Positions 2,265 through 19,072 of a stretch of 23,710 nucleotides of DNA are shown here, one piece after another. The position numbers and the translations under genes are program-made. How positions within the stretch are numbered: position 1 is the stretch's first letter; every line of letters starts with the position of its first letter. The notes beneath the pieces are model-generated. The model was not told where the DNA came from. It did no database searches and saw nothing but the letters and a program-made list of their open reading frames with translations. Source of the stretch: a virus; the IMG/VR virus record IMGVR_UViG_3300021960_000515, positions 1-23,710 of that record; one strand, written 5' to 3'.

Positions 2265-2855
2265 ATGGCAAACCTATTTGATGCTAGTAATTACCCAAGC
2301 CAAGAACCAGAAACCTTGGTGGTCGGTGATAGGTGGGTTTGGCAACGTCCTGACCTTGTTACGGACTACCCTACAGATGAGTACGCTTTAACGTACGAAT
2401 TTCATTGCGACTCTGGCGGCGGCGGTAGTCATAAGTTTACCGTTACAGCTTCAGAGACTACTACGGCGTATGTAATAGAGGTTAGTTCGTCAACGACAGC
2501 CGGTTATACTGCCCATCAATACAAGTGGTACGCTTTCATAACCAGAACTGCTGATTCACAACGAGTTGCTGTAGATAATGGCATAACCACTCTTGTGGTG
2601 AACTATGCCGACAGCAATGCGGATGTAAGAACCCACGCTAAGAAAGTCTTAGACTCTATTCAAGCTGTTATAGAGAACAGAGCAACGGTGGATCAAAGCT
2701 CATTCACAATCGCTGGCAGAAGCCTATCTAGAATGACCATAGACGAATTGTTCATGGTTAGAGACAGATACCGAGCCGAATACAACGAAGAAGTCAAAAA
2801 GGCTAGAATCAGAAACAAGAAGCCGTCTGGCAATTTAATTGGAGTAAGATTTTAA
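2265..2855 (+). CDS. Head-tail connector with gpW-like C-terminal domain
   Basis: A 196-aa protein sitting exactly where lambda places gpW, between gpA-like terminase and gpB-like portal. Residues about 120-196 (AKKVLDSIQAVIENRAT... ending RIRNKKPSGNLIGVRF) resemble the whole of gpW, the 68-aa head-completion protein that plugs the portal and receives the tail: a helix, a short beta element around SSFTIAGRSLSRM, and a second helix. The first roughly 110 residues (VVGDRWVWQRPDL, GSHKFTVTAS, YKWYAFITR) are predicted beta-rich and are not part of gpW. The start is ATG 2265, one base after the large-terminase stop, and the end overlaps the portal start as TAATG. The gpW assignment rests on position and pattern resemblance and the role of the extra domain is unknown. 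Confidence 0.72.
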   Translation: MANLFDASNYPSQEPETLVVGDRWVWQRPDLVTDYPTDEYALTYEFHCDSGGGGSHKFTVTASETTTAYVIEVSSSTTAGYTAHQYKWYAFITRTADSQRVAVDNGITTLVVNYADSNADVRTHAKKVLDSIQAVIENRATVDQSSFTIAGRSLSRMTIDELFMVRDRYRAEYNEEVKKARIRNKKPSGNLIGVRF

Positions 2856-4330
2856 TGGCTTGGAACCCTTTTAAACGAAAAGAGATCCGCAAACAGATCA
2901 AGATGCAAAGATCGTTTAAAGGTGCTCAGGGTGGTCGGTTATTCTCCGACTTTTTTAGTTCTTCAGCTTCCGCAGATCAGGAACTAAGGCAAGCACTGGT
3001 CACTTTACGGAACAGAAGCCGTGAGCTATCACGAAATGATGCTTATGTAGCTAGATACCTAAACCTACTAACGTCTAACGTGGTTGGACATAACGGTATT
3101 AGGGTTAATGCTAAGTCCAGAGACTCTGACGGAACCTTGGATTCTGTCGCAAACTCAACGATTGAGGCGGCGTGGAAGAAGTGGTCTAAGAAAGGTAACT
3201 GCACTGTGGACGGTCAGATGTCCATGATTGACTGTCAAAGGATGTTTATTGAGGCTCTAGCCCGTGATGGTGAGGTCCTAATCCGACAGATCACGGACCC
3301 TACAAGCGAATTTGGCTATAAGATTGAATTTCTGGAAGCAGATCACCTTAACGACACTAAAAACGAGATCTACACTAACGGCAACAAGGTTGTCATGGGT
3401 GTTGAGATCAACGAAAAGCGTAAACCTGTCGCGTATCACTTATATAAGAACCATCCAAACGATTTAGGGCTTAATCAGAGCAATGAGACGATTAGAGTCC
3501 CAGCAGAAGAGATAATTCACGCCTTTGTACGCCAAAGACCTGAACAGACTCGCGGATACCCGTTTGTGGCGCCTGTGATGGGCAATATTAAGATGCTGAA
3601 TGGGTATTATGAGGCTGAGATCACTGCGGCTAGGGTGTCTAGCGCCAAAATGGGTTTCTTTACCAGTCCAGCGGGAGATGGTTACGTTGGCGATGAGATG
3701 CAGGACGAATACACTCCGATCATGTCCGCGGAACCGGCTACGTTTGAGCAGCTCCCTGCCGGAATGGACTTTAAGGCATTTGATCCCGCTCATCCTACGA
3801 CAGCGTTTGAGAGCTTTTCTACTGCTATCCTGAGAAGTATTGCGTCAGGTTTAAACATTAGTTATCACTCAATCTCAAATGACTTGTCTAGCGTGAACTA
3901 TTCGTCTCTACGAGCTGGTAGCTTAGAGGATAGGGATCAATACAGGATACTTCAGAAGTTCATGGTTGAGCATTTTATTGAGCCGGTATTTAGAAGCTGG
4001 TTGAAGAACGCCATGACCCGTTCAATAAATCTTCCTATTACAAAGTACGATAAGTTTGCCGAAGGCGTGTCTTACATTCCTCGCAGTTGGGGTTGGGTAG
4101 ATCCGCAGAAGGAAATGCAAGCTAATATTGCTGGACTTCAGAACGGGATTGTGACTTATCAGGATATTGAGGCTAACTACGGGCGTGACGTTGAAGAGTT
4201 ATTTGAACAGCACGAACGAGAACAGAAGCTTGCTGAACAGTATGGAATAAAGACAGCCTTCCAGCCTTTTGGCATTAAGCTCCCAACAGAAGCCGAAGTT
4301 GAAGGAAGAGAAAATGCCGACACCGAATAG
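2855..4330 (+). CDS. Portal protein (lambda gpB family)
   Basis: A 491-aa portal subunit. The ring of portal copies forms the DNA entry vertex, nucleates prohead assembly, docks the terminase and later joins the tail. Family hallmarks are visible: RNRSRELSRNDAYVARYLNL near residue 50, followed by NVVGHNGIRVNA, the FIEALARDGEVLIRQI segment near 130-145, IIHAFVRQRPEQTRGYPFV near 215, and the conserved stretch ISNDLSSVNYSSLRAGSLED near 340-360. The length is close to lambda gpB (533 aa). No ClpP-type protease domain follows, unlike lambda gpC. Instead, an HK97-type protease is fused to the capsid in the next gene. The start overlaps the previous stop (TAATG), implying translational coupling. The end overlaps the next gene by 17 nt. 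Confidence 0.95.
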   Translation: MAWNPFKRKEIRKQIKMQRSFKGAQGGRLFSDFFSSSASADQELRQALVTLRNRSRELSRNDAYVARYLNLLTSNVVGHNGIRVNAKSRDSDGTLDSVANSTIEAAWKKWSKKGNCTVDGQMSMIDCQRMFIEALARDGEVLIRQITDPTSEFGYKIEFLEADHLNDTKNEIYTNGNKVVMGVEINEKRKPVAYHLYKNHPNDLGLNQSNETIRVPAEEIIHAFVRQRPEQTRGYPFVAPVMGNIKMLNGYYEAEITAARVSSAKMGFFTSPAGDGYVGDEMQDEYTPIMSAEPATFEQLPAGMDFKAFDPAHPTTAFESFSTAILRSIASGLNISYHSISNDLSSVNYSSLRAGSLEDRDQYRILQKFMVEHFIEPVFRSWLKNAMTRSINLPITKYDKFAEGVSYIPRSWGWVDPQKEMQANIAGLQNGIVTYQDIEANYGRDVEELFEQHEREQKLAEQYGIKTAFQPFGIKLPTEAEVEGRENADTE

Positions 4331-6656
4331 CGGAATGAAGTCAGAGGCCCGAAAAGGTCTTGATTGGCGTAGTGAGTTCGGTCGCGGTGGCACTGAGGTC
4401 GGTATTGCTAGAGCTAGGGACATTGTTAACGCCAAAGATCTGTCAGATTCTACAGTAAAAAGGATGTATTCGTTCTTTTCACGGCATGAAGTAGACAAGA
4501 AGGCACAAGGCTTTAGGCCTGGAGAGAAAGGATACCCGTCAAACGGAAGAATCGCTTGGGCGTTATGGGGCGGTGATGCTGGGTTTTCATGGTCTAAGAA
4601 GCTGGTAAATCAGATGAAAAAAGAAGAAAGATGGTCTGAATCTATTGACAAAGATGATACTATTGAGCCTGAACAAGAGGTGACACAAATGGAAAGACAC
4701 GTTATAGGTGTTGAAGAAACCGAAGACAGCTTTATCGTTGAGTTTAGAAAAGGCGATATGGAAGCTGCCGAAGAAACTGTTGAAGATGCTGTAGAAGAAA
4801 AGGCAGCAGAATCAGATGACGAAGAATATCAGGCTATGGCCCGTGATATGGTTTCTGACAAAGTAATTTACAGGACAATTGACCTTTCTCGCGGAGCTAT
4901 TGACGAAGAAAAGCGTATTGTCCGAATTGGTGTTTCATCAGAGACTCCAGTTGAACGAGATTTTGGCTTAGAGGTTTTAGGCCATAATAAAGAAGACATA
5001 GATATGGAATTTATGTCTTCTGGTCGCGCACCCTTACTGAACAACCATAAAATGGATGAACAGATAGGTGTGGTGCGGTCGTTTTACCTTGATGAGGCGC
5101 AGCGGCGTACCGTTGCGTTGGTTGAATTTGGCAATTCAGCCTTGGCTCAAGAGGTTTTTGAGGATGTTAGAACAGGCATTAAGCAAAACATTAGTGTCGG
5201 TTACAGCATTAACAGAATGGTTCGTTCTAAAGACGGCGAAGGAAAGGAGTACTACAGGGCTAGTTGGACACCGATGGAAGCATCAATTGTCGCTGTCCCT
5301 GCTGACCCCTCTAAGTTCGTTGGAGTTGGACGATCCACCGAAAAAACTTTAAACACTAATAAGGTGACTACTATGACTGAAGAAGTAAAAGTAGATGTTC
5401 GCCAAGTAAGTGATTCAGCCAAGGCAGAAGCGTTAGCCAATGTCGGTGAAATCATTTCTTTGGGTAAGCATCATAATCAGCGTGATTTAGCCGACAAAGC
5501 TATTGAACGTGGTGTATCCGTTGATCAATTCAAAGGCGAGCTTCTTGAAGCTGTCCGAAATGATCGTCCGTTAGAAACTCCTGCTGCTGTCGTTGACGTA
5601 GCCAAGAGCGAACAGCGTGAGTATAGCTTAATCCGAGCTATCAAAGCTGCTTCATCTGGCGACTGGCGCGAAGCTGGTTACGAGCGTGAAATCTCTGATG
5701 AGATCGCAAACCGTTCTGGCAAAGAAGCTCGCGGTTTCTACGTTCCTGCTAACATCAACTGGGGTCAGCGCGACCAGACTAAATCACCAACTTCTGCTGG
5801 TGGTTTCTTGGTCGGTACTGATCATCTTGCTGATCAATTCATTGAGGCACTTTATGGTCGTTTGACTGTAGCTTCTTTGGGTGCTCGCATCATGCAAGGC
5901 CTGAAAGGCGATGTTGCCATTCCTAAGCTCAGTGCTTCTGTAACCAACTCAGCATTCGTTGCTGAAGGTGCAGCGCCTAGCGAAGGTGCAGCTACGTTCG
6001 CACAGGTCACGATGTCGCCAAAAACGCTCGCAGCTTATGTTGACGTATCGCGGCGACTCATGCAGCAGTCAGACCCATCCGTAGAACAGGTTCTTCGTAA
6101 CGACATTATCAACACCTTCGCACGAAGGATTGATGATGCTGCTATTGAAGGCGGTGCTACTAATGGACCTTCTGGGATCATTGCTAACTCTGGTACTAAC
6201 GTAGTTGCTATGGGGACCAATGGTGCTGCAATCACCTACGCTAAAGTAGTTGAGATGATGAAAGCTGTAGAAGAAGATAATGCTCTCATCAACAGCTCTG
6301 CTTTCTTGACCAACCCTAAAGTCATCGCGGCTTTACGGACTACAGCAAGACAAGCAAACGGCGTTGAAGGCAACTTCATCATGGATGCCAACCAGTCAAT
6401 CTTGGGTACTAATGTTGCTTCTAGCACCGTTGTTCCTTCTGACTTGGCAAAAGGCACTGGCTCTAACCTGTCAGCAATGGTCTACGGCGATTTCAGCCAG
6501 ATCATGATCGGTTTCTGGTCAGGTGTTGACGTTGTTGTTGACCAATCAAGCTTGTCTACTTCTGGCGGTACGCGACTCGCGTTCTTCCAAGATCTAGATG
6601 TTGCTCTTAGATATCCTGAGTCTTTCTCAGTAATCAAAGACATCGTTGCAAGCTAA
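4314..6656 (+). CDS. Fused prohead protease and HK97-fold major capsid protein
   Basis: A single 780-aa ORF with three parts. Residues 1-125 (MPTPNSGMKSEARKGLDWRS, later YPSNGRIAWALWGGDAGFSW) form a small domain of unknown role. Residues about 126-353 are an HK97-type (peptidase S78) prohead protease with candidate catalytic H245 (LLNNH) and S294 (NISVGYS), plus the conserved EASIVAVPAD segment (E322). Residues about 354-780 are the HK97-fold capsid: a charged scaffold-like delta region to about 460, then GGFLVGTDHLADQFIEAL, AFVAEGAAPSEG, ARRIDDAAIEGG and a C-terminus ending ALRYPESFSVIKDIVAS. ATG 4314 is chosen because AAGGAAGAG precedes it; the ORF is open back to a TTG at 4269. In-frame ATGs at 4689 and 5373, each with a Shine-Dalgarno-like sequence, fall at the domain joints, so separate protease and capsid products may also be made. 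The fused protease would be expected to cut itself off and trim the delta region during maturation. Confidence 0.93.
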   Translation: MPTPNSGMKSEARKGLDWRSEFGRGGTEVGIARARDIVNAKDLSDSTVKRMYSFFSRHEVDKKAQGFRPGEKGYPSNGRIAWALWGGDAGFSWSKKLVNQMKKEERWSESIDKDDTIEPEQEVTQMERHVIGVEETEDSFIVEFRKGDMEAAEETVEDAVEEKAAESDDEEYQAMARDMVSDKVIYRTIDLSRGAIDEEKRIVRIGVSSETPVERDFGLEVLGHNKEDIDMEFMSSGRAPLLNNHKMDEQIGVVRSFYLDEAQRRTVALVEFGNSALAQEVFEDVRTGIKQNISVGYSINRMVRSKDGEGKEYYRASWTPMEASIVAVPADPSKFVGVGRSTEKTLNTNKVTTMTEEVKVDVRQVSDSAKAEALANVGEIISLGKHHNQRDLADKAIERGVSVDQFKGELLEAVRNDRPLETPAAVVDVAKSEQREYSLIRAIKAASSGDWREAGYEREISDEIANRSGKEARGFYVPANINWGQRDQTKSPTSAGGFLVGTDHLADQFIEALYGRLTVASLGARIMQGLKGDVAIPKLSASVTNSAFVAEGAAPSEGAATFAQVTMSPKTLAAYVDVSRRLMQQSDPSVEQVLRNDIINTFARRIDDAAIEGGATNGPSGIIANSGTNVVAMGTNGAAITYAKVVEMMKAVEEDNALINSSAFLTNPKVIAALRTTARQANGVEGNFIMDANQSILGTNVASSTVVPSDLAKGTGSNLSAMVYGDFSQIMIGFWSGVDVVVDQSSLSTSGGTRLAFFQDLDVALRYPESFSVIKDIVAS

Positions 6657-6699: not shown

Positions 6700-6879
6700 A
6701 TGGAATTAGTAATTAAGATGCCTTGCCACGTTCGCGGTGTACCGAGAAATGCAGGTGATATAGTTGTTTTATCTACAGCAGAAGCCCGACAGTTCATCAG
6801 TTCAGGCCATGCAGAAGAAATTAAGATGGACCCAAAGCCTTTATCTAAGAAGGCAGTTGAGAAAGTCGCCAAGCGATGA
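6700..6879 (+). CDS. Small conserved phage protein after the capsid gene
   Basis: A 59-aa protein, MELVIKMPCHVRG at the N-terminus, then VPRNAGDIVVLSTAEARQFI and a lysine-rich C-terminus. The pattern (short beta segments, a G-D-x-V turn, then a helix with SSGHAEE) resembles small proteins often encoded just after phage capsid genes, in the position of lambda gpFI. I cannot assign a function; a head-decoration or head-completion accessory is possible from position only. ATG 6700 is preferred to upstream in-frame starts because GGGAG at 6690-6694 lies 5 nt before it, whereas an upstream start would have to run through the hairpin at 6664-6681. The stop overlaps the next gene as ATGA. Confidence 0.75.
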   Translation: MELVIKMPCHVRGVPRNAGDIVVLSTAEARQFISSGHAEEIKMDPKPLSKKAVEKVAKR

Positions 6880-7220
6880 GCTTAGAATTTGATTCAGACT
6901 TTGATGGTTATCTGGACGTAATAGGTCATGGGGTTTCATGCACCTATACGCCGGCTGGTGGTTCGGCAGTTATCATCAAAGTTATTTTAGATCAAGAGTA
7001 TTATGAGATTCCTGGCGATACTGTTTCGTTCAATGGCAGTCAGCCAATCGTACAAGGTAAAGCCAAGGATTTAAGGAATGGGGCATTTGGCGATCAACTA
7101 GCCTTTGCCGCAATTACAGACCTAAGCGGCAACACAATCAAGAATGCCGCAACGTATAAAATAGTAAGCCTTCAGCCGGATAACACTGGAATGGTCACAG
7201 TAGTTCTTGAGGAACAGTAA
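6876..7220 (+). CDS. Head-tail joining protein (gpFII-like)
   Basis: A 114-aa protein in the position of lambda gpFII, the adaptor on the filled head that provides the attachment site for the tail. As in gpFII (117 aa), there is a short helical start (MSLEFDSDFDGYLDVIG), then a beta-barrel pattern: VSCTYTPAGG, VIIKVILDQEYYEI, an extended loop with SQPIVQGKAKDL, and a closing pair of strands YKIVSLQPDNTGMVTVVLEE. The latter matches the family ending in which a V-x-x-hydrophobic-x-P-D segment is followed by a last strand. The assignment rests on length, order and pattern. The start overlaps the previous stop (ATGA) and the end overlaps the next start (TAATG). Confidence 0.75.
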   Translation: MSLEFDSDFDGYLDVIGHGVSCTYTPAGGSAVIIKVILDQEYYEIPGDTVSFNGSQPIVQGKAKDLRNGAFGDQLAFAAITDLSGNTIKNAATYKIVSLQPDNTGMVTVVLEEQ

Positions 7221-7666
7221 TGGCTGATCATGTAAGGCAGAGAATAAGAGAGCAAGTAGCAACTACGGTAACAGGACTAGCAACTACTGGTAGCAATGTA
7301 TTTCAGTCAAGAGTCTATTCTCTGAGCGATGATGTACTGCCAGCCCTGTTGGTCTACAGCGTCTCTGAAAGCTCTGACATTGACTCTATGGGATCAATAG
7401 GTTCTCTAACCAGAAACCTTAGCCTGTCAATAGAAGGGTATGTGAAGAACGTCTCTGATTACGACGATGTGATTGATGACGTTTGCAAGGAAGTTGAAAT
7501 TGCTATGGCCGGCGACAAGACCTTAAATGGCTTGGCTCAAAATAGCTATTTAGCTGGCACTGATATAAATTATAACGGTGAAGGCGAGCAGCCTGTTGGT
7601 ATTGTTACGATGAATTATGTTATACAATATCGCACAGCAACTAATGCTCCTGAAACCGCATTATAG
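7220..7666 (+). CDS. Tail terminator protein (gpU-like)
   Basis: A 148-aa protein that by position and pattern matches lambda gpU, the hexameric ring that stops tail-tube growth and joins tail to head. Visible features are an N-terminal helix (VRQRIREQVATTVTGL), an SRVYSLSDDVLPALLVYSV segment typical of gpU-type terminators (a V-y-x-l-x-x-x-x-L-P-a-l-x-V-y pattern), a central strand RNLSLSIEGYVK, a helix with DDVCKEVEIAM, and a final strand VGIVTMNYVIQYRTA in which many family members end. The start is coupled to the previous gene (TAATG). The stop TAG is embedded in a Shine-Dalgarno sequence AGGTGA that serves the next small gene. Confidence 0.82.
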   Translation: MADHVRQRIREQVATTVTGLATTGSNVFQSRVYSLSDDVLPALLVYSVSESSDIDSMGSIGSLTRNLSLSIEGYVKNVSDYDDVIDDVCKEVEIAMAGDKTLNGLAQNSYLAGTDINYNGEGEQPVGIVTMNYVIQYRTATNAPETAL

Positions 7667-7676
7667 GTGATATACT

Positions 7677-7853
7677 ATGAAGCTATATAGTCCAGACGGC
7701 TCATCTGAAGTAGATGCTCATCCGTCAAAAGTAGAATCTATGATCAACCTCGGTTGGACACAGGAAAAGAAAGGCAAGGCAAAACCCAAGAAGGCTTTAG
7801 AGTCTACAGAAGTTGTTGAGTCTCAAACTAAATCAGATAAGGAGTCTGAATAA
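7677..7853 (+). CDS. Small tail-region protein, 58 aa
   Basis: A short gene between tail terminator and tail tube, encoding MKLYSPDGSSEVDAHPSKVE and on through SMINLGWTQEKK to a Lys/Glu-rich tail ending DKESE. The N-terminal pattern (a short strand with a D-G turn, a V-D-A-H-P-S-x-V element, and a helix ending in G-W) recurs in small phage proteins found beside tail genes, but I know of no assigned function. The reading frame is well supported: AGGTGA lies 6 nt before the ATG, the spacing is tight, and the stop overlaps the tube gene start as TAATG (7851-7855). The acidic/lysine tail is likely disordered. Confidence 0.75.
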   Translation: MKLYSPDGSSEVDAHPSKVESMINLGWTQEKKGKAKPKKALESTEVVESQTKSDKESE

Positions 7854-8242
7854 TGGCAAGTCATATCGGACGCGATGGGATTGTTAAAGTCGGTAGCGCT
7901 ACAGTAGCCGAAGTTAAATCATTTTCTATAGAAGAATCAGCGGATACCGTTGAAACAACTAAAATGACGGATACGTCACGAACTCATGCAATCACTTTGT
8001 CCAGTTTCTCTGGCTCATTAGATTGTTTTTGGGACGAAACGGATTCTTCAGGACAAGGAGCTTTGACAATCGGGGCGAGTGTAACGCTTGGCTTATACCC
8101 AGAAGGCGGGGCTAGTGGTGCTACTTATTACTCTGGCACAGCCTTAGTGACAGGCGTTTCTAGAACTGCAAGCTTTGACGGAATGGTAGAAGCTTCTATC
8201 TCTGTTCAAGGTACTGGCGCTCTAACAGCCGATACGGTATAA
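7853..8242 (+). CDS. Major tail tube protein
   Basis: A 129-aa protein in the place of lambda gpV. Hexameric rings of it stack to build the tail tube. The segment SFSIEESADTVETTKMTDTS near residues 22-41 is typical of phage tail-tube proteins, where a strand with E-x-x-D-x-x-E is followed by a T-x-M-x-D/T loop. Later segments FSGSLDCFWDETD and ALVTGVSRTASFDGMVEASI match the paired strands of the tube fold, and the last strand is followed by GTGALTADTV. It lacks the C-terminal Ig-like domain of lambda gpV (246 aa), so it corresponds to the gpV core. The start overlaps the 58-aa gene (TAATG). The chaperone gene starts one base after its stop. Confidence 0.85.
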   Translation: MASHIGRDGIVKVGSATVAEVKSFSIEESADTVETTKMTDTSRTHAITLSSFSGSLDCFWDETDSSGQGALTIGASVTLGLYPEGGASGATYYSGTALVTGVSRTASFDGMVEASISVQGTGALTADTV

Positions 8243-8243
8243 C

Positions 8244-8576
8244 ATGCCGAGGCTAATTGAGAACGCATTAGCACACTTTAACAGCAAGGATTTGCGGAAG
8301 ATTGAGGTCCCAGAATGGGAAGTTAGTCTTTTCGCAAAGAACCTTACCCTTGACGATAAGGCCAAGATGCTTCGTCGCGCAGATAGTGATAACACTGATT
8401 ATCTTATCTATGCGGTGATCTTTGGCCTTGTTGATGAGAACGGAGATCCTGTCTTCGGGCTTGAGGATAAGGTCTCGCTGAGAAAGAAGGTTGATCCAGA
8501 CATAGTGACTAGACTTGCTACGTTTGCGCTAACCGCTGGTTCTGAATCGGAGGAAGACCGAGAAAAAAACTTATAA
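8244..8576 (+). CDS. Tail assembly chaperone, short form (gpG-like)
   Basis: The 110-aa unshifted product, equivalent to lambda gpG, which with gpGT coats the tape measure and recruits tube protein. The N-terminus (ENALAHFNSKDLRKIEVPEWEVSLFAKNLTLDDKAKM) shows the family pattern of an I-x-V-P-E-W-x segment followed by a helix, and YLIYAVIFGLVDENGDPVF carries the usual phrase for a domain end. It terminates at TAA 8574-8576, four bases after a slippery A AAA AAC in the same frame. Position immediately after the tube gene and before the tape measure is the invariant location of this pair in long-tailed phages. No separate ribosome-binding site is obvious; translation is probably coupled. Confidence 0.88.
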   Translation: MPRLIENALAHFNSKDLRKIEVPEWEVSLFAKNLTLDDKAKMLRRADSDNTDYLIYAVIFGLVDENGDPVFGLEDKVSLRKKVDPDIVTRLATFALTAGSESEEDREKNL

Positions 8577-8767
8577 CTGACCAAGGCAACCCAACTCAGC
8601 TATACTACATGTATGAGTTAGCCGAGCGACTTGGTCAGCCCCTAGCGACAATCTTAGACATGACTGTGGCAGAGTTTGATCATTGGTGGACTTTCTTTAA
8701 AGTGAAAAGAGAGAAGATGGATGGCGACAACAAAAGAAACAGTCCTAGCAAAAATATCAATAGATGA
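8244..8767 (+). CDS. Tail assembly chaperone, -1 frameshift form (gpGT-like)
   Basis: The predicted product of a -1 ribosomal frameshift, joining 8244-8570 to 8570-8767 (174 aa). After the shift the reading is ...KN|LITDQGNPTQLYYMYELA, continuing with ERLGQPLATILDMTVAEFDH, then WWTFFKVKREKMDGDNKRNS and ending PSKNINR before TGA 8765-8767. The shifted extension has the hallmarks of a T domain: a helix with L-A-x-x-L-G-x-x, then a M-T-V-A-E-F-x-x-W segment. The slip site (8564-8570) and downstream stem-loop (8577-8638) are listed separately. The extension lacks its own start with a ribosome-binding site and would otherwise leave a 140-nt hole in a tightly packed operon. It overlaps the tape-measure start by 47 nt, another common feature of this locus. 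Confidence 0.87.
8564..8570 (+). promoter_or_regulatory. -1 ribosomal slippery heptamer A AAA AAC
   Basis: The heptamer AAAAAAC is phased as A AAA AAC in the frame of the gpG-like gene (codons AAA at 8565-8567 and AAC at 8568-8570), an exact match to the X XXY YYZ rule for tandem -1 slippage. Shifting back one base moves translation into the T-like frame at 8570. The 0-frame stop follows after one more codon. Lambda uses GGGAAAG at the same place. AAAAAAC is a known slippery type, though in E. coli usually weaker than AAAAAAG. Confidence 0.88.
8577..8638 (+). promoter_or_regulatory. Stem-loop stimulating the -1 frameshift (predicted)
   Basis: A perfect 9-bp inverted repeat, CTGACCAAG (8577-8585) with CTTGGTCAG (8630-8638), begins 6 nt after the slippery heptamer, in the usual range for a -1 stimulator. 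Within its loop a second perfect pairing, AACTCA (8593-8598) with TGAGTT (8614-8619), gives a stacked two-stem hairpin with an internal loop. The sequence also encodes the T-like domain, so base pairing and coding are both constrained. Structure was judged by eye, with no folding energy computed. Confidence 0.72.
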
Positions 8768-11270
8768 TAATACGAAGGTAGGATTTCAGTCCTACGCTCG
8801 TAATGCTGAACGCGCTAAGAAAACCACAGAAGCCTTCCGTGCTCACGCTGTTGACAAGCTTGTAGAGAGCTTAGACAAGCAGGTCATGGCTATAGGTAAA
8901 AGCGCCAGAGAACTTGACCTTCTCAAGGCAGCAAGTCTTAATGCTGCCGATGGTGAGCTTGCGCTTATCAACAAACTTCATGATGATATTGATGCTCACA
9001 ATCAAGCCACAGAAGCTGCGATACGCTTAAACAAAGAGCGTGATCAAGAAGCTGCTGCGGCACAGAAGATTGCTGACGCAGTAAACCGCACTAACAACGC
9101 CTACAGAGATGAAGCCGCCACGGTTGATATGACCTCTGACGAGCTTGAGATCTATCGTCTAAAGATGATGGGTGCTACTCAAGAACAGTTAGATTCTGTA
9201 ACGGCTACTCAGCAAGCTACTCAAGCGTTCAGAAAACAAGGTTCTGCTGCTGCCAACACTGCGAAAGGCGGATTGCGCTTGATGCGTGGCGGTATGGGCC
9301 AGTTAGGCCATCAGGTACAGGACGTTGCGGTCCAGCTTCAGATGGGGCAGAACGCGCTTCTCATCTTCGGTCAGCAGGGTTCCCAGGTTGCATCTTTATT
9401 CGGTCAGAACGGCGCTATGATTGGTGCTGTATTAGCCGTAGGTGCCGCGCTTGGTACTTACTTCATGCCTAAAGTGTTTAGCTCTAAGGACGCCTTAGAA
9501 GAAATGAAGAAATCAGCAGAGGCTACTGCGGAATTCTTAAAGATAGATTTTGTTTCTGGAGTTGCCTTACTTACTGATAAGTTTGATGAACTAACTAAGA
9601 AAAGCGAGAGTTTAGCAAAAGCTACATTGCAGATTGAGCTTGTTAATGCAATGAAAAACGCTAAAGGCGCGGTTACCGGATTCAAAGATGAGTTAAGCAA
9701 CTTAATACCACCTACTCTTGGCACTGACACAAACGTAATGATAGACGAGCTTACTGTCTTGTCTAACAAGTATGGTGTGGCAAGAGAAGATCTTGAGAAA
9801 GTAGTAGAAGCTCAGAAGAGTTATAACAAGGGAACCGGCGCAACAATAGATAGCATTGCAGAATTGATGCAAAGCATATCAGACTCCAGCATGCAAACTG
9901 CCGAGCAATCAGAAGAGTTCTTAAAAGCTAATTTAAGAATACAACAATTTAAAGTTGCGTCTGAAGAAGCCGGAATAGTTTTAGAAACTTTAAGAGAAGT
10001 GTTATTTGGCAACGCAACGGCAACAGAGGCTAAAGCTAAAGCTGATACCGAGGCAAAAGATAAAGCAGACGAGTTAAAGCAAACTGTAGATGAGCATGTT
10101 CAATCTTTAACGGACGAGAATACCCAGCTAGTCTTCGGTTTGAAGACTCTGCAAGCACTACAACTTGCTCGCAAGGGTTACAGCGCTGAACAAATAAAAG
10201 AAATTTTCCGTTTACAAGAAGTTAACCAAGGCTTGCGTGATGGAAAGGCATTGCGAGATGAAGATGCGGCGGCTCTTAGAGAGCAAGCGGTGTCTGCTGA
10301 AAACTACGTCAATGGCGTAGTCGCACAAGCGGATGCTCTTGGAAAAAGCAACATAGAGCTGTTGTTAGCTAACGATTTGGTGAAAGGGTTAGATACGGAG
10401 CAGAAAAAAGCATTTGATAATGCAATACAAAGGCTTAAAGATTTTCAAGCCGCACAAGAAGAGTCGCAAAAGGTAGAGAGTGCTAAGGGTAAATTAGAGA
10501 GCTTGCGGCAATCTTTGTTGACTGAAGAGCAAGCACTAGAACAGTCTATGGTTAATCAAAACCTGATTCTTGTAGAAAATCTAGCACTGGGCGTTATTAA
10601 TGAACAGACGTTCAGAGATATGCAGTTGCAAGTCATTGAGGACTTCAATGAGAAGAAGAAAGCTTTATTAGATCAAGGTGTAACAGACGAATTAGAAGGC
10701 ATGTCTTTCTTGCAAAAAGCTTCTATTGAAGGCGCTAAGAGACTAGAGTCATTTAACAAGCTGTCTGCTACAGAACAGACCGAGCATGTTTTGGGCGAAC
10801 TTGGTAATCAATTCAACGGTATAGCAAAGAACAACAAAAAACTGTTTGAGCTTAGTAAAAAGTTGAATATTGCCAGTGCCATAATGAATACTGCTAACGC
10901 TGCAACCTTGGCGTACAAGAGTTATCCGCCGCCTCTCAACTACGTTATGGCTGGTGGTGTTATTGCTGCCGGCATGGGGCAAGTCGCTCAGATCAAGGCT
11001 CAGAGCTTTGATGGTGGTGGTTTCACCGGCACAGGCGGAAGGTCCGGCGGCATGGATGGCAAGGGCGGCTTCCCAGCTATTCTTCATCCTAATGAAACGG
11101 TTATTGATCACACTAAAGGCCAAGGTGGCGGGATCACCGTGGTAAATAACATAGACGCTACTGGCGCTGATGCTAACGTAGATATGAAGATTAGAGCAGC
11201 AGTTCAGCAGAGTTCACAGCAGACGATCATGAGCATACAGGATCTTATTAGACGCAGAAGGTTCGGCTAA
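8721..11270 (+). CDS. Tail tape measure protein (lambda gpH-like)
   Basis: An 849-aa, mainly helical protein whose length sets tail length and which is later ejected ahead of the DNA. Most of it is charged, Ala/Gln/Glu-rich coiled-coil sequence (for example residues 30-180 and 290-680). A hydrophobic patch at about 210-250 (NALLIFGQQGSQVASLFGQN, then GAMIGAVLAVGAALGTYF) would insert in the membrane, as in gpH. The C-terminal 100 residues show the lambda-type tape-measure ending: NTANAATLAYKSYPPPLNYV, GGGFTGTGGRSGG, then ILHPNETVIDHTKGQGGG. In lambda gpH this end is removed by proteolysis during assembly. By the usual rule of roughly 0.15 nm per residue, the tail would be about 125 nm (inference). 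AAGAGAGAAG precedes ATG 8721. It overlaps the frameshifted chaperone and ends with TAATG at the next gene. Confidence 0.94.
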   Translation: MATTKETVLAKISIDDNTKVGFQSYARNAERAKKTTEAFRAHAVDKLVESLDKQVMAIGKSARELDLLKAASLNAADGELALINKLHDDIDAHNQATEAAIRLNKERDQEAAAAQKIADAVNRTNNAYRDEAATVDMTSDELEIYRLKMMGATQEQLDSVTATQQATQAFRKQGSAAANTAKGGLRLMRGGMGQLGHQVQDVAVQLQMGQNALLIFGQQGSQVASLFGQNGAMIGAVLAVGAALGTYFMPKVFSSKDALEEMKKSAEATAEFLKIDFVSGVALLTDKFDELTKKSESLAKATLQIELVNAMKNAKGAVTGFKDELSNLIPPTLGTDTNVMIDELTVLSNKYGVAREDLEKVVEAQKSYNKGTGATIDSIAELMQSISDSSMQTAEQSEEFLKANLRIQQFKVASEEAGIVLETLREVLFGNATATEAKAKADTEAKDKADELKQTVDEHVQSLTDENTQLVFGLKTLQALQLARKGYSAEQIKEIFRLQEVNQGLRDGKALRDEDAAALREQAVSAENYVNGVVAQADALGKSNIELLLANDLVKGLDTEQKKAFDNAIQRLKDFQAAQEESQKVESAKGKLESLRQSLLTEEQALEQSMVNQNLILVENLALGVINEQTFRDMQLQVIEDFNEKKKALLDQGVTDELEGMSFLQKASIEGAKRLESFNKLSATEQTEHVLGELGNQFNGIAKNNKKLFELSKKLNIASAIMNTANAATLAYKSYPPPLNYVMAGGVIAAGMGQVAQIKAQSFDGGGFTGTGGRSGGMDGKGGFPAILHPNETVIDHTKGQGGGITVVNNIDATGADANVDMKIRAAVQQSSQQTIMSIQDLIRRRRFG

Positions 11271-12654: not shown

Positions 12655-13046
12655 TGCAGCTTCAAGTCCATCAAGCATTAAATAAGTGGGAAAAGAAAGA
12701 CTTTGATTATGGCTCTGTGGACTGTTGTCAGTTCGCTGGGTTCATCGTAAAAGAGCTAACAGGAAAAGACTATCTTGCCGATTTCCACTATAATTCTGAG
12801 GAAGACGCTGAATCTATTATTAAGGATTTTGGCGACTTGGAAGAAACTGCCGCAAGCGTTTTGGGCGAGCCTACGGAAGACATTAGATCTTTAGCGGACG
12901 GTTCGCCAGTAATTGTTAAAACGCCTACAACCCAGCTTATGGGTATCAAGCTGGGAAACACAGCAGTTTGTCTAGTTAAGACGGGGCTCGCAAGAGTCCC
13001 TGAACAACATATCTTATCGGGTTGGGATTTATGCCACAAGCAATAG
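12651..13046 (+). CDS. NlpC/P60-fold tail protein (DUF6950, gpK-like)
   Basis: A 131-aa protein in the position of lambda gpK, a tail protein with a peptidoglycan-peptidase fold. WEKKDFDYGSVDCCQFAGFI near residues 13-32 matches the NlpC/P60 nucleophile motif (usual form D-C-S-G-F), giving D24-C25-C26-Q27-F28 with C25 as the candidate nucleophile. The second motif, normally containing histidine, corresponds to MGIKLGNTAVCLVKTGLARV and has no histidine there; the only late histidines are in EQHILSGW and LCHKQ. The family may thus be structural rather than enzymatic, or use a different base. It starts with tandem ATGs (12651, 12654), the first overlapping the previous stop. Its last 16 bases overlap the gpJ-like gene. 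Confidence 0.75.
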   Translation: MMQLQVHQALNKWEKKDFDYGSVDCCQFAGFIVKELTGKDYLADFHYNSEEDAESIIKDFGDLEETAASVLGEPTEDIRSLADGSPVIVKTPTTQLMGIKLGNTAVCLVKTGLARVPEQHILSGWDLCHKQ

Positions 13047-16000
13047 GTATAGCGTTACTAAAAGTTGGGTTTTTTGCTTTTGAGTTTTTAGCTGGAGCGG
13101 CTGCTGCCGCAACGCTTGGGGGTGGCGCTGCTGTAGCGATTGGTGCTGCTGTTGTCGTTGGCGGCGCTTTAGTTGCAAAACAAGCAATGTCGCTTTTTGA
13201 AGTAGAAATTCCTACTGTTGACTCAGATTCGTCCAGACAGAGAACAGTTAAGTCAACGACAGAGCCACAGAAGATAATTTATGGCGAGGCATTAGTGTCT
13301 GGCCCGATTTCATTTATCGGGTTATCAGGAACCGATAACTCTGACCTTTACCAAACCATTGTTCTTGCAGGGCATGAACTGACAGACATTACCGACATCC
13401 ACATGGATGACATTGTAATTTCTAACGCAGATGTAAACGGCGGTGCTGCTGCTGGCGGCGCTGTTGGTTCTGGCTCTGTTGAGTTTGGCCCCAAGAACGG
13501 CACAATATGCGTAATCAATAAGTATAAAGGCGAAACGTCTCAAACAGCAGATCCTTTATTCACTGCTGCTTTCAGTACAGGCCCAGCAAGCAATCGATAC
13601 ACATCCGCTCATCGTGGTGATGGTATTGCTTATCTAGCGATGAAGTGGACGCTTAACGAAGACTCAGCGGAAACTTGGGAGAAGTTTGCACCGTCTAATG
13701 TTAAAGCATTGGTAAAAGGCAAGCCTGTTTATGACCCACGGTTAGACACTGGTGCGCCAAACTACAACCCTCTAAACCAGCTTTTCATTACATACAACGC
13801 AACCGCTGGCAGTTATGTCGGTCAAGGCCAGAACCCTGCGCTAGTTTTAGCTGACTACCTAATTAATTCTACCCTTGGTATGGGAATAAGCCCGTCCAAG
13901 ATTGATTGGAGTTCGTTTATAACCGCTGCTAACGGGTGTGATGTATCTGTAGTTGTTCCTAACAGCGGAACAGAAAAGCGTTTTACCTGTAACGGCGTAT
14001 TATTTGCGACTGACTCTCATCAGAAAAATATAAACAAGATCCTGTCTTCAATGAACGGTAACCTTGTTTACTCAAACGGTAAGTACATTGTTCACGCTGG
14101 AATCTATGAGGCTCCGACCGAGACTTTGACCGAAGATGATTTGATAGGTGCTATTTCAATCAAGACTTCTTTGGAACGATCAGACCGATTTAATACAATC
14201 AAAGGTCTGTTTATTGACCCTGCACAGAATCACAAGTCTACCGAGTTTCCAAAGGTTCAGTTATCTGACGCTGTTACTAGGGATAACAATGAGATTCTGG
14301 AGAAAGAAGTCCAGTATCCCATGACAAACTCAAGCTATATGGCTCAGAGATTGTCAAATAAGCTGATTCAGTTGAGCGATCAACAGAAGGTCGTTACGTT
14401 CCCTGCAAATCTATCTGCGTTGAGAATCACGGCGGGTGATCGGGTTCAAGTCTCTGTTGAGGAATTAAGCTGGTCAAATAAGGTATTTCAGTGCGTAGGT
14501 TGGACTTTCTCGGAAGAAGGTGGGGTTAATCTAACTTTACGGGAAGACTCAAGCACTTCTTACGCTGATCCAGCAGCTAACGAGTATTCCACGGTTACGG
14601 CTACAGGAGATATCACAGACGCATTCAGGGGCGTGCCAAGTCCTAGCGGTTTAAGTGCAACGGCTGGATTAAAAAGCAATGAACTTAACTGGGTCAATCC
14701 TGCCAAGAATAATGACTTCGGAACTATTTACGTCTACGCATCTCCAAACGGCAACTTTTCATCCGCAGTCAAGATTGGTGAAACTAACGGAACGCAATTT
14801 GTACACGATGCAAGTAATTCAGCCGACTCAGTTGTATCAGGAGATGTCCGTTATTACTGGGTTAGAGCCGTTAGAAATGTTGGAACAGACGCGGCAAGTC
14901 AGTCTAACTTAGAGCCGAATGCTGATCCGAATACCACGGTTTTTGCTACAGTCGGGCGTGTGGAATGGACAGACGTAGCGGGATCAACTGGCGCGCCAGC
15001 AAATAACGCAACCGCTGGTGCTCAAATATCTGTTGATTTGTTTGACGCTGACGGAACAACTGTCATGAGTCAAGCTGACGTTAAGAACTCAGTATTAGCC
15101 CAAGAGATCCTTGAAGTAGAAGTTGAAGCTGGTCAAGTATTATCACTAGAGACAGGCCAAGACGTTGACATACAGAACTTAGGTGATGTGGCCATCTTCG
15201 TTAGCGATAGCAACGTCACGCTTAACACTTCAATCAATACGGTCGCAAATAATTTAAGCGCACTGGAAACGGTTGTTGTTGATTTAACTTCAGGCGTTTC
15301 TGAAGTCTTTGTTCAAGCTACAGAACCTGTTGCGGGCGTTGGTGGTATCCCAAATCCTATACCTGACTTTTCGCGCTGGTATGACAGTTCGGAAAACAAC
15401 CAGCCTTATTATTGGAGTGGAACCGATTGGGAAGATCTGCGGGACGGTCAAACTACACAGAATACAGCTGCAATAACAAATCTACAAACGTCTTTGACAA
15501 CGACTAACGGGAACGTCACAAGCAACGCTAGTGCTATATCTGTATTAGATGCGACTACGGTTACACAGGGTAATTCTATAACGTCAATCACTTCTGATGT
15601 GACTGCGTTAGAAACCACGGTTAACGATGCGACCACAGGCGTTGCTGCAACATCTACAGCCTTGGGAAATTTGACAACCCGAGTAACGACTGCCGAAGGA
15701 TCTATAACAACCAACGCTTCAGATATTACTACTTTGCAGACAGATGTAACGACGGCTGAAGGAAACATCACAACTAACGCTGGTGCTATCAGCGGATTAG
15801 ATACGCGGGTTACAACTGCCGAAGGTTCTATTGTTTCTCAGGCATCTGATATTACTGCTCTTGAAACTACAGTAAATAATGGGACTACAGGCGTTGCGGC
15901 GAATGCGTCTGGATTGACGGCGCTTACAACAAGGGTAACAAATACTGAGGACGCCACTACTGTAAACTCGGGAGCTGTAACGACCCTAAACGCCACTTAT

Positions 16001-19000
16001 GTTGAAGACCTTCATTTTAGAACTGAAGCCGAAGACGAAAACGACAACCTTATTGATTTAGAGACTTCAGGAACCGTTCAGCTTCAAGATCTGTCTGACT
16101 TGGCAGGAGGTACATCAGCAGCGATTGATTCGCTGACAGTGCAAACCTTCGCCAACGAAAACGGCATACAGACTCAGGCGATCCAATTGACCGCACTTGA
16201 ATCTACCGTTAACGATCCTGCAAACGGGGTTGTGGCGACTGCTGGCGCTCTGTCAACGCTATCCAGTTCAGTAACGGTCATTGACGGACAAGTTACTTCC
16301 ACGGCACAAGATCTGACCACACTAAGCACGACAGTCGGCGACAATACGTCAAGCATCACGACACAATCCAATTCTATAAACGGAGTCGAGGCGAACTACG
16401 GGGTCAAGATTGACAACAATAACCGCATCACTGGGTTTGGTTTACTATCTACAACGGCAGGTTCAACTCCGTTTTCAGAGTTTGCAGTGGTCGCTGATCA
16501 GTTCTCAATCGTAAGTCCTGATTCAACCTCTGACACTCCGATCCAACCTTTCACGGTGACATCAGACAAGATCTTCTTCGGGGCTGATGTTGTTATCTCA
16601 GGTGATTTGATTTCAACAGGCACAATCTCAGCAGACAGGCTTCAGATTGATGGCGTAATGTTTGATACCGAGACGGTCGGCGGTGTGACCAGCTTGGTCA
16701 TAAAAGAAAGCGGTGTTAACACTTCCCAAATTGCAGAGTCAGCGATCACAACCGCAAGGCTCTCAAACGATGCGGTGACTGTTGATAAGTTTGCGAACAC
16801 TTTGCAGAGCACGAACTACGTTGCCGATACGAGCGGATGGCAGATCCTAACTTCAGGGGATGTTGAGTTTCAGAATGCAACGATCAACGGGACTGTAACA
16901 TCAGCAGTCGGAAACATTGGAGGCTTTACTTTAGGCTCAACAAGTTTTACCGCTGGCGACGGAACAACCAAGGTTTCTCTTTCAACTGCCGATGGCATTC
17001 ATTTGGGAGACAACACGTTTTCATCTGCGCCTTTCCGTGTTAGCCCAGCGGGTGCGTTGACAGCCACTAGCGCAACGATCACTGGTGAGATCAACGCAAC
17101 CAGTGGAACATTAAGTTCATCAATTGCTATAGGAGCTGGCAACAGCATTTTTAAGGCTGACAGCAATGGCATATACCTCGGCAACGCAACGTTTGCTTCA
17201 GCGCCGTTTAGGGTAACGCCAGCAGGCGATGTAACTGCTACGTCAGTAAACCTAACAGGGACGATTGACGCTTCTACGAACTTCACCTTCAGTGGCGACA
17301 ACGTCACTGGGACAATGGATGCTGATAATTTAGACGTTGCGGGAATTATAACGGCTGGAGCATTGATCACAGACTCAGCAACGATTAACAACGATATTAA
17401 AATAGGTTCTGGCGAAAGTGTCTTTAAGGCAGATTCAAACGGCATTTATCTTGGAAATGAAACCTTCGCCAATGCGGAATTTAGAGTCACACCGGCAGGT
17501 GTTTTAACAGCAACTGGCGCAAACATTTCGGGCGCTTTAACCGCAACCAGTGGGACGTTTGATGGAGCTGTTAACGTTGGCACAGCCGGCGCTTTTTACG
17601 GCGGCACATCAACCGCATTCAACACGGGCAAAGGATTTTTCTTAGGTTATGACACTGCTGCCTACAAGTTAAGCATCGGCGATGCGTCTACTGGCAAGTC
17701 TTTGACGTGGGATGGTGACAAACTAAATGTCGCAGCAAACGCTGTAAGTTTTACTACCGGCGGCGAACCATCGTATGACTCAACCTCAAAGGTTCCTGTA
17801 TCGGTTAGAAGCTCAGTTTTAGATCTGACAAGCAATACTGATTATGTGTTCTTCGCCAACGACTTTGATCAGAATCTTACGTTGTACGCTTCATTCTATG
17901 CTGGCCCATTAACGTCGGGCGTTGTTGCTGGATTGACCAACGCGCAGAATGCGATTATGGCCCAGTTATCGTTGCAGATTCAGTATGCGCCTAACAGTGG
18001 CGGATCGCCTGGAACTTGGGTCAATTTTGGCTCGGCTGCATTGTCTAGCAAAAAGTTCAGTGCTGGTCAGTTAAGCAGTAACTACTATGTTAAGACTACC
18101 GACTTAGGCAGCGGCAACTATCGCGCAGACTTGGCAACAGCTTCGCAAGCGGCGGCAGATTTCACTGGATTGGGTCATTCTGATTACGCCTATGGAATCA
18201 CAGACGAAGACTATTACATGACCGAGCAAGTGACGGTCTACAACTTCCCTAAAGGAGAATATTTCGTCAGGGTGGTTGCGGCGGTTACTGATGGAACTTA
18301 CAGCCCATATCCCGCAACGGGTAGTCCAGCTTTGACTAACCCTAGAAGGCTGTCGATCAACAACTCATTGACTTATACCGATTCTGACCACGGTCTTTCG
18401 GCAGTAGCAAAAGGCAATCCACAGACATATTTTACTGGATTGTTTAACAACACTTTGGTTGACGGCGGCAGTCTGACGATAGCGGTGAACGAAGAAAACG
18501 CAACCAGTAACAGATACGGCGGTATCTTTATAGCTGGTCGAGGTGAAACGACAGATCCAAATTCAATCCAGCCTTTGGGTGGTATATATTTCTACAACGG
18601 CGTCGATGACTTAGGTTCAGGTGCTGGTGATATTGGTAGTCCGAATCATGGTCTGTTCGTACCAAAAACAGGCGATAGTTTAAACATTGAGGCGGGTGGT
18701 AACGGCATCAAGTTTAACGGCGGCTATGGAAGCACTGGCGCGACGATCGACACGAATGGCAACTACTTTGCAGATGGGAACATCACCATTTCAGGAACGG
18801 TTAGCCAAGGCTCTGATGCCCGATTGAAGACTGACGTTGAGACCATTGACGGTAGTAAGGTTTTTGATATGCGTGGTGTTAGCTTTATCAAGAATGGTAG
18901 AAAGGGTGCTGGTGTAATAGCTCAAGAGCTAAGGGAAGTCGCACCTGAATTAGTCAAAGAAGGTTCGGACGGGATGTTGTCCGTAACGTATGGGGATTTG

Positions 19001-19072
19001 ATCGGGTATCTAATTGAATCCGTTAAGACTTTGAAGGACGAGATTGAGCAGATTAAGGCTGACCAATCATAG
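13031..19072 (+). CDS. gpJ-like hub and central fibre with S74 chaperone end
   Basis: A 2013-aa tail-tip protein. Residues about 1-55 are very hydrophobic and Gly/Ala-rich (VGFFAFEFLAGAAAAATLGG onward), reminiscent of lambda gpI-type or membrane-inserting N-termini. Residues about 60-520 are the gpJ/Phage-tail hub region (EPQKIIYGEALVSGPISFIG, VLADYLINSTLGMGI, ITAGDRVQVSVEEL). A fibronectin-III-like domain follows at about 535-640 (GVPSPSGLSATAGLKSNELN). Residues about 740-1120 form a Thr-rich coiled coil with repeats such as LTTRVTTAEGSITTNASDIT. Three related beta modules lie at 1320-1494, then a beta-rich fibre shaft. The last 86 residues are an S74 intramolecular chaperone with the S-D-x-R-L-K motif (S1928, K1933), predicted to trimerise the fibre and cut itself off before S1928. 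ATG 13031 is chosen over TTG 13022. This is the likely host-recognition protein. Confidence 0.92.
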   Translation: MPQAIGIALLKVGFFAFEFLAGAAAAATLGGGAAVAIGAAVVVGGALVAKQAMSLFEVEIPTVDSDSSRQRTVKSTTEPQKIIYGEALVSGPISFIGLSGTDNSDLYQTIVLAGHELTDITDIHMDDIVISNADVNGGAAAGGAVGSGSVEFGPKNGTICVINKYKGETSQTADPLFTAAFSTGPASNRYTSAHRGDGIAYLAMKWTLNEDSAETWEKFAPSNVKALVKGKPVYDPRLDTGAPNYNPLNQLFITYNATAGSYVGQGQNPALVLADYLINSTLGMGISPSKIDWSSFITAANGCDVSVVVPNSGTEKRFTCNGVLFATDSHQKNINKILSSMNGNLVYSNGKYIVHAGIYEAPTETLTEDDLIGAISIKTSLERSDRFNTIKGLFIDPAQNHKSTEFPKVQLSDAVTRDNNEILEKEVQYPMTNSSYMAQRLSNKLIQLSDQQKVVTFPANLSALRITAGDRVQVSVEELSWSNKVFQCVGWTFSEEGGVNLTLREDSSTSYADPAANEYSTVTATGDITDAFRGVPSPSGLSATAGLKSNELNWVNPAKNNDFGTIYVYASPNGNFSSAVKIGETNGTQFVHDASNSADSVVSGDVRYYWVRAVRNVGTDAASQSNLEPNADPNTTVFATVGRVEWTDVAGSTGAPANNATAGAQISVDLFDADGTTVMSQADVKNSVLAQEILEVEVEAGQVLSLETGQDVDIQNLGDVAIFVSDSNVTLNTSINTVANNLSALETVVVDLTSGVSEVFVQATEPVAGVGGIPNPIPDFSRWYDSSENNQPYYWSGTDWEDLRDGQTTQNTAAITNLQTSLTTTNGNVTSNASAISVLDATTVTQGNSITSITSDVTALETTVNDATTGVAATSTALGNLTTRVTTAEGSITTNASDITTLQTDVTTAEGNITTNAGAISGLDTRVTTAEGSIVSQASDITALETTVNNGTTGVAANASGLTALTTRVTNTEDATTVNSGAVTTLNATYVEDLHFRTEAEDENDNLIDLETSGTVQLQDLSDLAGGTSAAIDSLTVQTFANENGIQTQAIQLTALESTVNDPANGVVATAGALSTLSSSVTVIDGQVTSTAQDLTTLSTTVGDNTSSITTQSNSINGVEANYGVKIDNNNRITGFGLLSTTAGSTPFSEFAVVADQFSIVSPDSTSDTPIQPFTVTSDKIFFGADVVISGDLISTGTISADRLQIDGVMFDTETVGGVTSLVIKESGVNTSQIAESAITTARLSNDAVTVDKFANTLQSTNYVADTSGWQILTSGDVEFQNATINGTVTSAVGNIGGFTLGSTSFTAGDGTTKVSLSTADGIHLGDNTFSSAPFRVSPAGALTATSATITGEINATSGTLSSSIAIGAGNSIFKADSNGIYLGNATFASAPFRVTPAGDVTATSVNLTGTIDASTNFTFSGDNVTGTMDADNLDVAGIITAGALITDSATINNDIKIGSGESVFKADSNGIYLGNETFANAEFRVTPAGVLTATGANISGALTATSGTFDGAVNVGTAGAFYGGTSTAFNTGKGFFLGYDTAAYKLSIGDASTGKSLTWDGDKLNVAANAVSFTTGGEPSYDSTSKVPVSVRSSVLDLTSNTDYVFFANDFDQNLTLYASFYAGPLTSGVVAGLTNAQNAIMAQLSLQIQYAPNSGGSPGTWVNFGSAALSSKKFSAGQLSSNYYVKTTDLGSGNYRADLATASQAAADFTGLGHSDYAYGITDEDYYMTEQVTVYNFPKGEYFVRVVAAVTDGTYSPYPATGSPALTNPRRLSINNSLTYTDSDHGLSAVAKGNPQTYFTGLFNNTLVDGGSLTIAVNEENATSNRYGGIFIAGRGETTDPNSIQPLGGIYFYNGVDDLGSGAGDIGSPNHGLFVPKTGDSLNIEAGGNGIKFNGGYGSTGATIDTNGNYFADGNITISGTVSQGSDARLKTDVETIDGSKVFDMRGVSFIKNGRKGAGVIAQELREVAPELVKEGSDGMLSVTYGDLIGYLIESVKTLKDEIEQIKADQS
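16988..17512 (+). repeat. Three related beta modules inside the gpJ-like gene
   Basis: A module of about 26-28 residues with the pattern aD-x-x-G-I-y-L-G-x-x-t-F-a-x-A-x-F-R-V-x-P-A-G-x-l-T-A occurs three times: 16988-17065, 17156-17239 and 17429-17512. The spacing between starts is about 168 and 273 nt, the second interval containing an extra TIDAST/TMDADN segment. The intervening sequence (ATSGTLSSSIAIGAGNSIFK and IKIGSGESVFK) is also related between copies 2 and 3. The arrangement indicates in-frame duplication of fibre-shaft units. Confidence 0.8.

Follow-up and report, generated by a model that had tools for sequence, protein, structure and literature searches.

In an uncultivated phage, probably of marine origin, the tail assembly chaperone gene can with high confidence be read as a lambda-type G/GT module, in which -1 programmed ribosomal frameshifting would be stimulated by a downstream hairpin under selection. 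The DNA analyzed, here called the window, is a 23,710-base IMG/VR virus record. Tail-chaperone frameshifting is among nature's commonest recoding events, and both this process and hairpin stimulators are already known separately. Directly supported in the present case were the sequence layout, the selection acting on the stem and the constancy of its location, and the conservation of the slip site and of the T frame.

The + strand of the window carries a lambda-like head and tail module. Gene calls and matches to Pfam and PHROG profiles assigned the terminase to positions 401–2263 and the portal to 2855–4330, and Pfam/PHROG matches placed the capsid at about 4299–6656. The 785-aa product of 4299–6656 contains a capsid domain in its C-terminal part (Pfam Phage_capsid, residues 501–780), its N-terminal part matched other PHROGs, and judging from these matches it is probably a protease-capsid fusion. 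The head-tail joining (6876–7220), tail terminator (7220–7666), and major tail protein genes (7853–8242) follow. A 58-aa ORF (7677–7853) overlaps the 5' end of the gene for the major tail protein, a place where pelagiphages also have small ORFs. The tape measure gene (8721–11270; PHROG 1538, E = 1e-22; Pfam TMP_2, E = 7e-6) shares 47 nt with the end of T, and tail tip and fibre genes lie on its 3' side, including a gene (13022–19072) for a tail tip protein of about 2000 aa with a C-terminal Peptidase_S74 chaperone domain. The gene calls and PHROG matches thus gave the order major tail protein, G, tape measure.

The G gene for the tail assembly chaperone (8244–8576, + strand) is a 0-frame ORF of 110 aa that ends with TAA at 8574–8576. 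Its product matched PHROG 344 (tail assembly chaperone, E = 9e-10) and PHROG 16513 (E = 3e-5); in the Pfam search, no TAC model scored above its cut-off for the window chaperone. The slippery heptamer A_AAA_AAC is located at 8564–8570 in X_XXY_YYZ phase with G, and it was the sole such site among the 24 in-phase heptamers present in 19 frames of the window. It is followed by the 6-nt spacer TTATAA (8571–8576), which holds the 0-frame stop codon. A T-like domain, predicted to be reached via the slip, is encoded in the -1 frame (8567–8767, 66 open codons, TGA at 8765–8767), and an in silico slip at 8570 gave a predicted GT fusion of 174 aa (8244–8767). G ends with EKNL-stop, and a slip would result in the junction EKNLITDQ, with NLITDQGNPTQLYYMYELAER as the predicted tryptic junction peptide. 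The correctly phased heptamer, the spacer up to the 0-frame stop, and the shifted frame open to 8767 with its 174-aa product had all been described in a first-pass annotation of the window, and a base-by-base check of the coordinates agreed with this description. PHROG 16513 (tail assembly chaperone) aligned to GT residues 4–152, spanning the junction, with an E value of 8e-8 versus 3e-5 for G alone. The T half alone gave weak matches (PHROG 25875, E = 0.005; PHROG 337, E = 0.03), despite which the T-like domain is conserved among relatives.

Downstream of the stop codon, a 5' arm (CTGACCAAG, 8577–8585, core 8578–8585) and a 3' arm (CTTGGTCAG, 8630–8638, core 8630–8637), both read on the + strand, are perfect complements of each other. 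Folding of 8570–8645 yielded -21.0 kcal/mol (z = -3.2 versus dinucleotide shuffles; 1 of 200 shuffles was as good), and the window helix had p = 0.003 versus synonymous codon shuffles. An alignment of 41 close relatives contained no indels bar one, and unguided RNAalifold analysis of it returned exactly one helix, corresponding to window positions 8578–8585 with 8630–8637. The perfect 9-bp stem proposed in the first-pass annotation was exact in its complementarity, and its conserved part is this 8-bp core; the outermost pair C8577–G8638 was found in only 13 of the 41 relatives. Across the eight core pairs of the 41 homologues, 327 of 328 cells were paired, and compensated double changes occurred at four of the eight pairs. 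The covariation score was 0.311 versus 0.135 in shuffles (reached by 0 of 500), and pairing amounted to only 17–56% when the partner arm was shifted by 1–3 columns as a control. On a tree inferred from G only, the most parsimonious history has about 7 double and 8 single changes that preserve pairing versus 1 that breaks it. The distance from the heptamer to the core stem was 7 nt in all 41 relatives. In L160, GAC-GAT has been swapped in together with CTT-CGT-CAG, and the pair is kept though both sides change amino acids (Gln to Asp, Gly to Arg). In L204, from a metagenome bin whose label, Euryarchaeota, may be wrong, GGGAAAC replaces AAAAAAC in front of the same stem. The compensatory changes that the first-pass annotation had suggested looking for were thus found for the outer stem, the homologues keeping slip site and stem together with compensated pairs. 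On this comparative sequence evidence, the outer stem is real and under selection.

The same annotation had drawn a second, nested stem of 6 bp in the loop. The segments concerned, AACTCA (8593–8598) and TGAGTT (8614–8619, both + strand), are complementary, but this complementarity is all that stood: only 64.7% of the cells were paired among relatives, and most central pairs were broken in 10–18 of 41 sequences. RNA folding returned the outer stem and not the inner one as drawn, the minimum-energy fold using CUC/GAG, GCUA/UAGC, and UAC/GUA pairs in the loop instead (-21.0 versus -17.7 kcal/mol for the two-stem form). The 65% pairing and the alternative predicted fold spoke against the inner stem as drawn being a conserved element. 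Inner segments of the relatives folded slightly better than their codon shuffles (median p = 0.11, p < 0.05 in 9 of 40), and the pairings varied. The inner region is perhaps a compact loop with no defined helix, and the full fold is uncertain because the inner stem lacks conservation. A search for a pseudoknot between the loop and downstream sequence (helix scan to +140) identified only the main stem as clearly covarying; the candidate pairing 8614–8619 with 8673–8678 (6 bp, G-U-rich, 87% paired) was too weak to adopt.

Homologues were sought with the 174-aa protein, with two alignments of proteins, and with three more members of the family as queries, and 312 loci were recovered, nearly all on viral contigs and with some contigs represented more than once; a scan of genomes yielded the relatives L203 and L204, both in metagenome bins, plus two unrelated matches. 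An in-phase heptamer with a -1 frame open for 35 codons or more was present at 287 of the 312 loci, equivalent to 135 distinct sites, which formed 44 clusters at 75% amino-acid identity. The heptamer was AAAAAAC at 103 of the 135 distinct sites and GGGAAAC at 7, with AAAAAAG, GGGAAAG, or A8–A10 tracts at the remaining ones; A runs of ≤7 were found at 120 sites, and A6C at 50. In 42 of 44 clusters, 0 or 3 nt separate the heptamer from the 0-frame stop. A canonical heptamer was lacking at 24 loci, the majority of which retain T in the -1 frame, following A_AAG or another site, or are truncated by the end of the contig. L222–L232, L164, and L198 have T in the -1 frame and no X_XXY_YYZ heptamer, and the site resembles A_AAG at or just 5' of the stop; in L198, CCGAGCC/GGCTCGG lies downstream of the A_AAG-like site. 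L055 (1998–2403), in which G is joined in frame to the end of T and the slip site is gone, looks like an in-frame deletion fusion or an assembly artefact. In L186, the slip site is an A9 tract and T lies in the +1 frame; comparison of L186 with L197 and L199 showed that A9 versus A10 places T in the +1 or the -1 frame, and the tract difference in this sub-clade suggests polymerase slippage or sequencing error.

For each of the 44 clusters, the best helix starting 4–10 nt past the heptamer was evaluated against synonymous codon shuffles, with the search restricted to perfect helices with approximate G-U energies. Helices at this offset reached p < 0.05 in 31 and p < 0.01 in 18 of the 44 phylogenetically non-independent clusters, whereas other start offsets gave p < 0.05 in only 2–7 of 44. 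The significant helices start 5–8 nt, mostly 5–7 nt, past the heptamer and are 6–13 bp long. The stem sequences are unrelated between clades: TGACCAAG in the window clade, ACGGCGGGGATG in L176, GGACACTGAGTT in L063, CAGATAAGG in L049, and GGATAGGGAGT in L169. While the 5' arm is fixed 5–8 nt from the slip site, the location of its partner varies by clade, with the 3' arm ending about 36–40, 52–67, or 85–92 nt past the heptamer in different regions of T. Two other clades have compensated pairs of their own. The layout is also present in the isolate phages Pelagibacter HTVC111P (7 bp), Sinorhizobium phi3LM21 (7 bp), and Phage DSL-LC06 (13 bp); in the same test, the helix was not significant for HTVC026P, HTVC202P, and RcRhea. 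The chaperone of the Rhodobacter phage RcRhea is annotated as joined. For simple hairpin stimulators, the loops are large: 44 nt in the window and as much as about 70 nt in other cases.

These data bear on the possibility that the frameshift is real while the stem serves another purpose, such as stabilizing or processing the mRNA or shielding the site where the tape measure gene starts, or merely results from the coding sequence. The tape measure gene starts only 83 nt beyond the stem, and the search of Rfam revealed no family matching the element (Pfam likewise none), both of which would suit such a role. Against it stand the loss of the stem under codon-preserving shuffles, the restriction of the signal to starts 4–10 nt past the heptamer, and a 5' arm locked to the slip site with a 3' arm that shifts between clades. 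We consider this explanation improbable and retain the selected hairpin as the putative stimulator of ribosomal frameshifting.

The presence of a stem varied with the heptamer. A significant stem was found in 28 of 34 clusters with AAC heptamers versus 3 of 10 with other slip sites (Fisher p = 0.003), and the excess helix energy differed likewise (Mann-Whitney p = 2e-4). This association is to be taken as a trend only because outside the close clade the corresponding numbers were 12 of 17 and 3 of 9 (p = 0.10). None of the four clusters with A tracts of at least 8 had a significant helix. The L120 clade, which sits within a group of stem-bearing relatives, retains the T frame with an A8 tract and has no helix at the usual place. 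In L120, L131, L133, L144, and L154 the tract is A8G, and a strong fold begins further downstream. As the L120 clade and the phages HTVC026P, HTVC202P, and RcRhea have no significant helix, the stem appears dispensable in some relatives. The pattern fits a trade-off between the strength of the slip site and that of the stimulator, which is unproven since the clusters share ancestry. A more far-reaching reading, which we put forward tentatively and regard as possible though somewhat doubtful, is that the stimulator has been rebuilt repeatedly. Its 5' arm would stay fixed while the 3' arm is recruited from at least three non-corresponding parts of T, and stems would be gained or lost with the intrinsic slipperiness of the heptamer (stems at weak AAC sites, and often none at AAG or long A tracts), holding the G:GT ratio amid sequence turnover.

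Slippage of the polymerase on the A tract, yielding mRNAs that gain or lose an A, would leave the stem without a role as ribosomal stimulator. Seven consecutive A residues in the window and A8–A10 in some relatives are compatible with it, and the different tract lengths and T frames of L186 and L197 fit polymerase slippage in that sub-clade. However, 120 of the 135 sites have A runs of ≤7, and the 50 A6C sites and the 7 GGGAAAC sites, with only three A residues, still keep the T frame; the close relative L204 combines GGGAAAC with the same stem, and a fixed, ribosome-like stem spacing is not expected from a slipping polymerase. The A6 and GGGAAAC sites ruled out transcriptional slippage as the general mechanism, and as an account of the window signal it is very improbable. 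It is unlikely at A6, A7, and GGGAAAC sites, may operate in A8–A10 sub-clades, and is plausible in those with A9–A10. The least credible alternative, an independent start of T past the G stop with the stem governing reinitiation or ribosome access, could draw on the position of this stop immediately 5' of the stem and on an in-frame T ATG at 8609, but this ATG lies inside the loop, a start there loses the first part of T, the Met is not conserved in the wider alignment, reinitiation gives no reason for in-phase heptamer conservation, and the PHROG 16513 alignment spans the junction. Among the examined relatives with an identifiable T domain, there was no clear case of an independently started T gene, the arrangement that the first-pass annotation had set against its own reading.

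A candidate upstream stimulator of ribosomal slippage is the Shine-Dalgarno (SD)-like GGAGG (8549–8553, + strand), which ends 10 nt 5' of the heptamer. This element goes beyond the first-pass annotation, as does the recurrence of the layout with unrelated stems in the wider chaperone family. SD-like motifs 6–17 nt upstream were present in 33 of 44 clusters versus 22.0 expected from synonymous shuffles (P = 3e-5 assuming independent clusters), and several clades lack them. In the window itself the motif is unremarkable (null 0.87) because Glu-Glu-Asp codons yield it anyway; a function as upstream stimulator is possible.

From this arrangement we infer slippage, its rate, and its stimulation by the stem, with roles of G and GT proposed by homology to lambda. 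Most ribosomes would read G up to the stop at 8574 and release the 110-aa protein. A minority would have tRNA-Lys in the P site (codon AAA) and tRNA-Asn in the A site (codon AAC) when reaching the hairpin, whose first pair lies 6–7 nt past the heptamer and which may stall the ribosome or put it under tension; pairing of the upstream GGAGG with 16S rRNA could help. A backward slip by one base onto AAA AAA would then lead to the 174-aa GT. The stem would boost the AAC heptamer, which is weak on its own, and would set the ratio of G to GT required for tail assembly. Evolution has apparently kept a hairpin 5–8 bases past the slip site to set the slip frequency.

Selection on such a stem is directly visible in many uncultivated phages through covariation and codon-preserving controls. 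Naturally compensated variants and the natural loss in the L120 clade provide a test set for the contributions of heptamer and hairpin strength to a protein ratio, and spacing combined with covariation can find recoding signals outside every Rfam family in viral metagenomes.

The lambda G/GT frameshift and its conserved relatives (Levin 1993 and Xu 2004, as summarized in PMC5009743) operate at a G:GT ratio of about 30:1 in lambda, which is crucial for tail assembly (PMC5009743). As in lambda, the chaperone gene of the window is flanked by those for the major tail protein and the tape measure, and its small 0-frame product is predicted to gain a T extension in the -1 frame via an X_XXY_YYZ heptamer close to the 3' end of G. 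It differs from lambda in the heptamer (A_AAA_AAC versus G_GGA_AAG), the distance of the stop past the heptamer (3 versus 15 nt), the length of the extension (about 65 versus 144 aa), and the strongly covarying stem 6–7 nt downstream. Subjected to the same helix test, lambda was marginal (8-bp helix, p = 0.036 in a single test), and TP901-1 had no helix (p = 0.84); for HK97 and Bxb1, no in-phase canonical heptamer passed the filter, so that both are uninformative comparators. The g-t frameshifts of the haloarchaeal virus HCTV differ by their archaeal hosts. In a survey of clusters sharing heptamers, hairpins were considered relevant for just one cluster from phages (PMC4066793), and in PRFect varied structure windows gave no clear accuracy peak (PMC10885494). 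In the papers covered, a stem that is under selection and covaries did not figure as a standard component of chaperone sites, and we make no claim of priority. Stimulatory hairpins in bacteria have been sought 4–10 nt past the motif (PMC4066793). Signals of IS3-family transposases share hairpin starts in this range (PMC4066793) and differ in belonging to mobile-element genes and in the occurrence of pseudoknots, none of which was demonstrated in the window. In E. coli dnaX, the SD is located 10 nt 5' of the site, and the stem has about 11 bp (PMC5009743). With the candidate element GGAGG 10 nt upstream, an A_AAA_AAN heptamer, and a stem of similar length a few nucleotides downstream, the window has a dnaX-like three-part layout (PMC5009743). 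The dnaX heptamer ends with AAG and that of the window with AAC, frameshifting gives a shorter product in dnaX and a longer one in the window, the window loop is much larger, and the proteins are unrelated; the resemblance would thus be one of analogous working, not of membership. The window signal fits the published 4–10 nt hairpin range and the SD and stem layout of dnaX, in line with its reading as ribosomal frameshifting.
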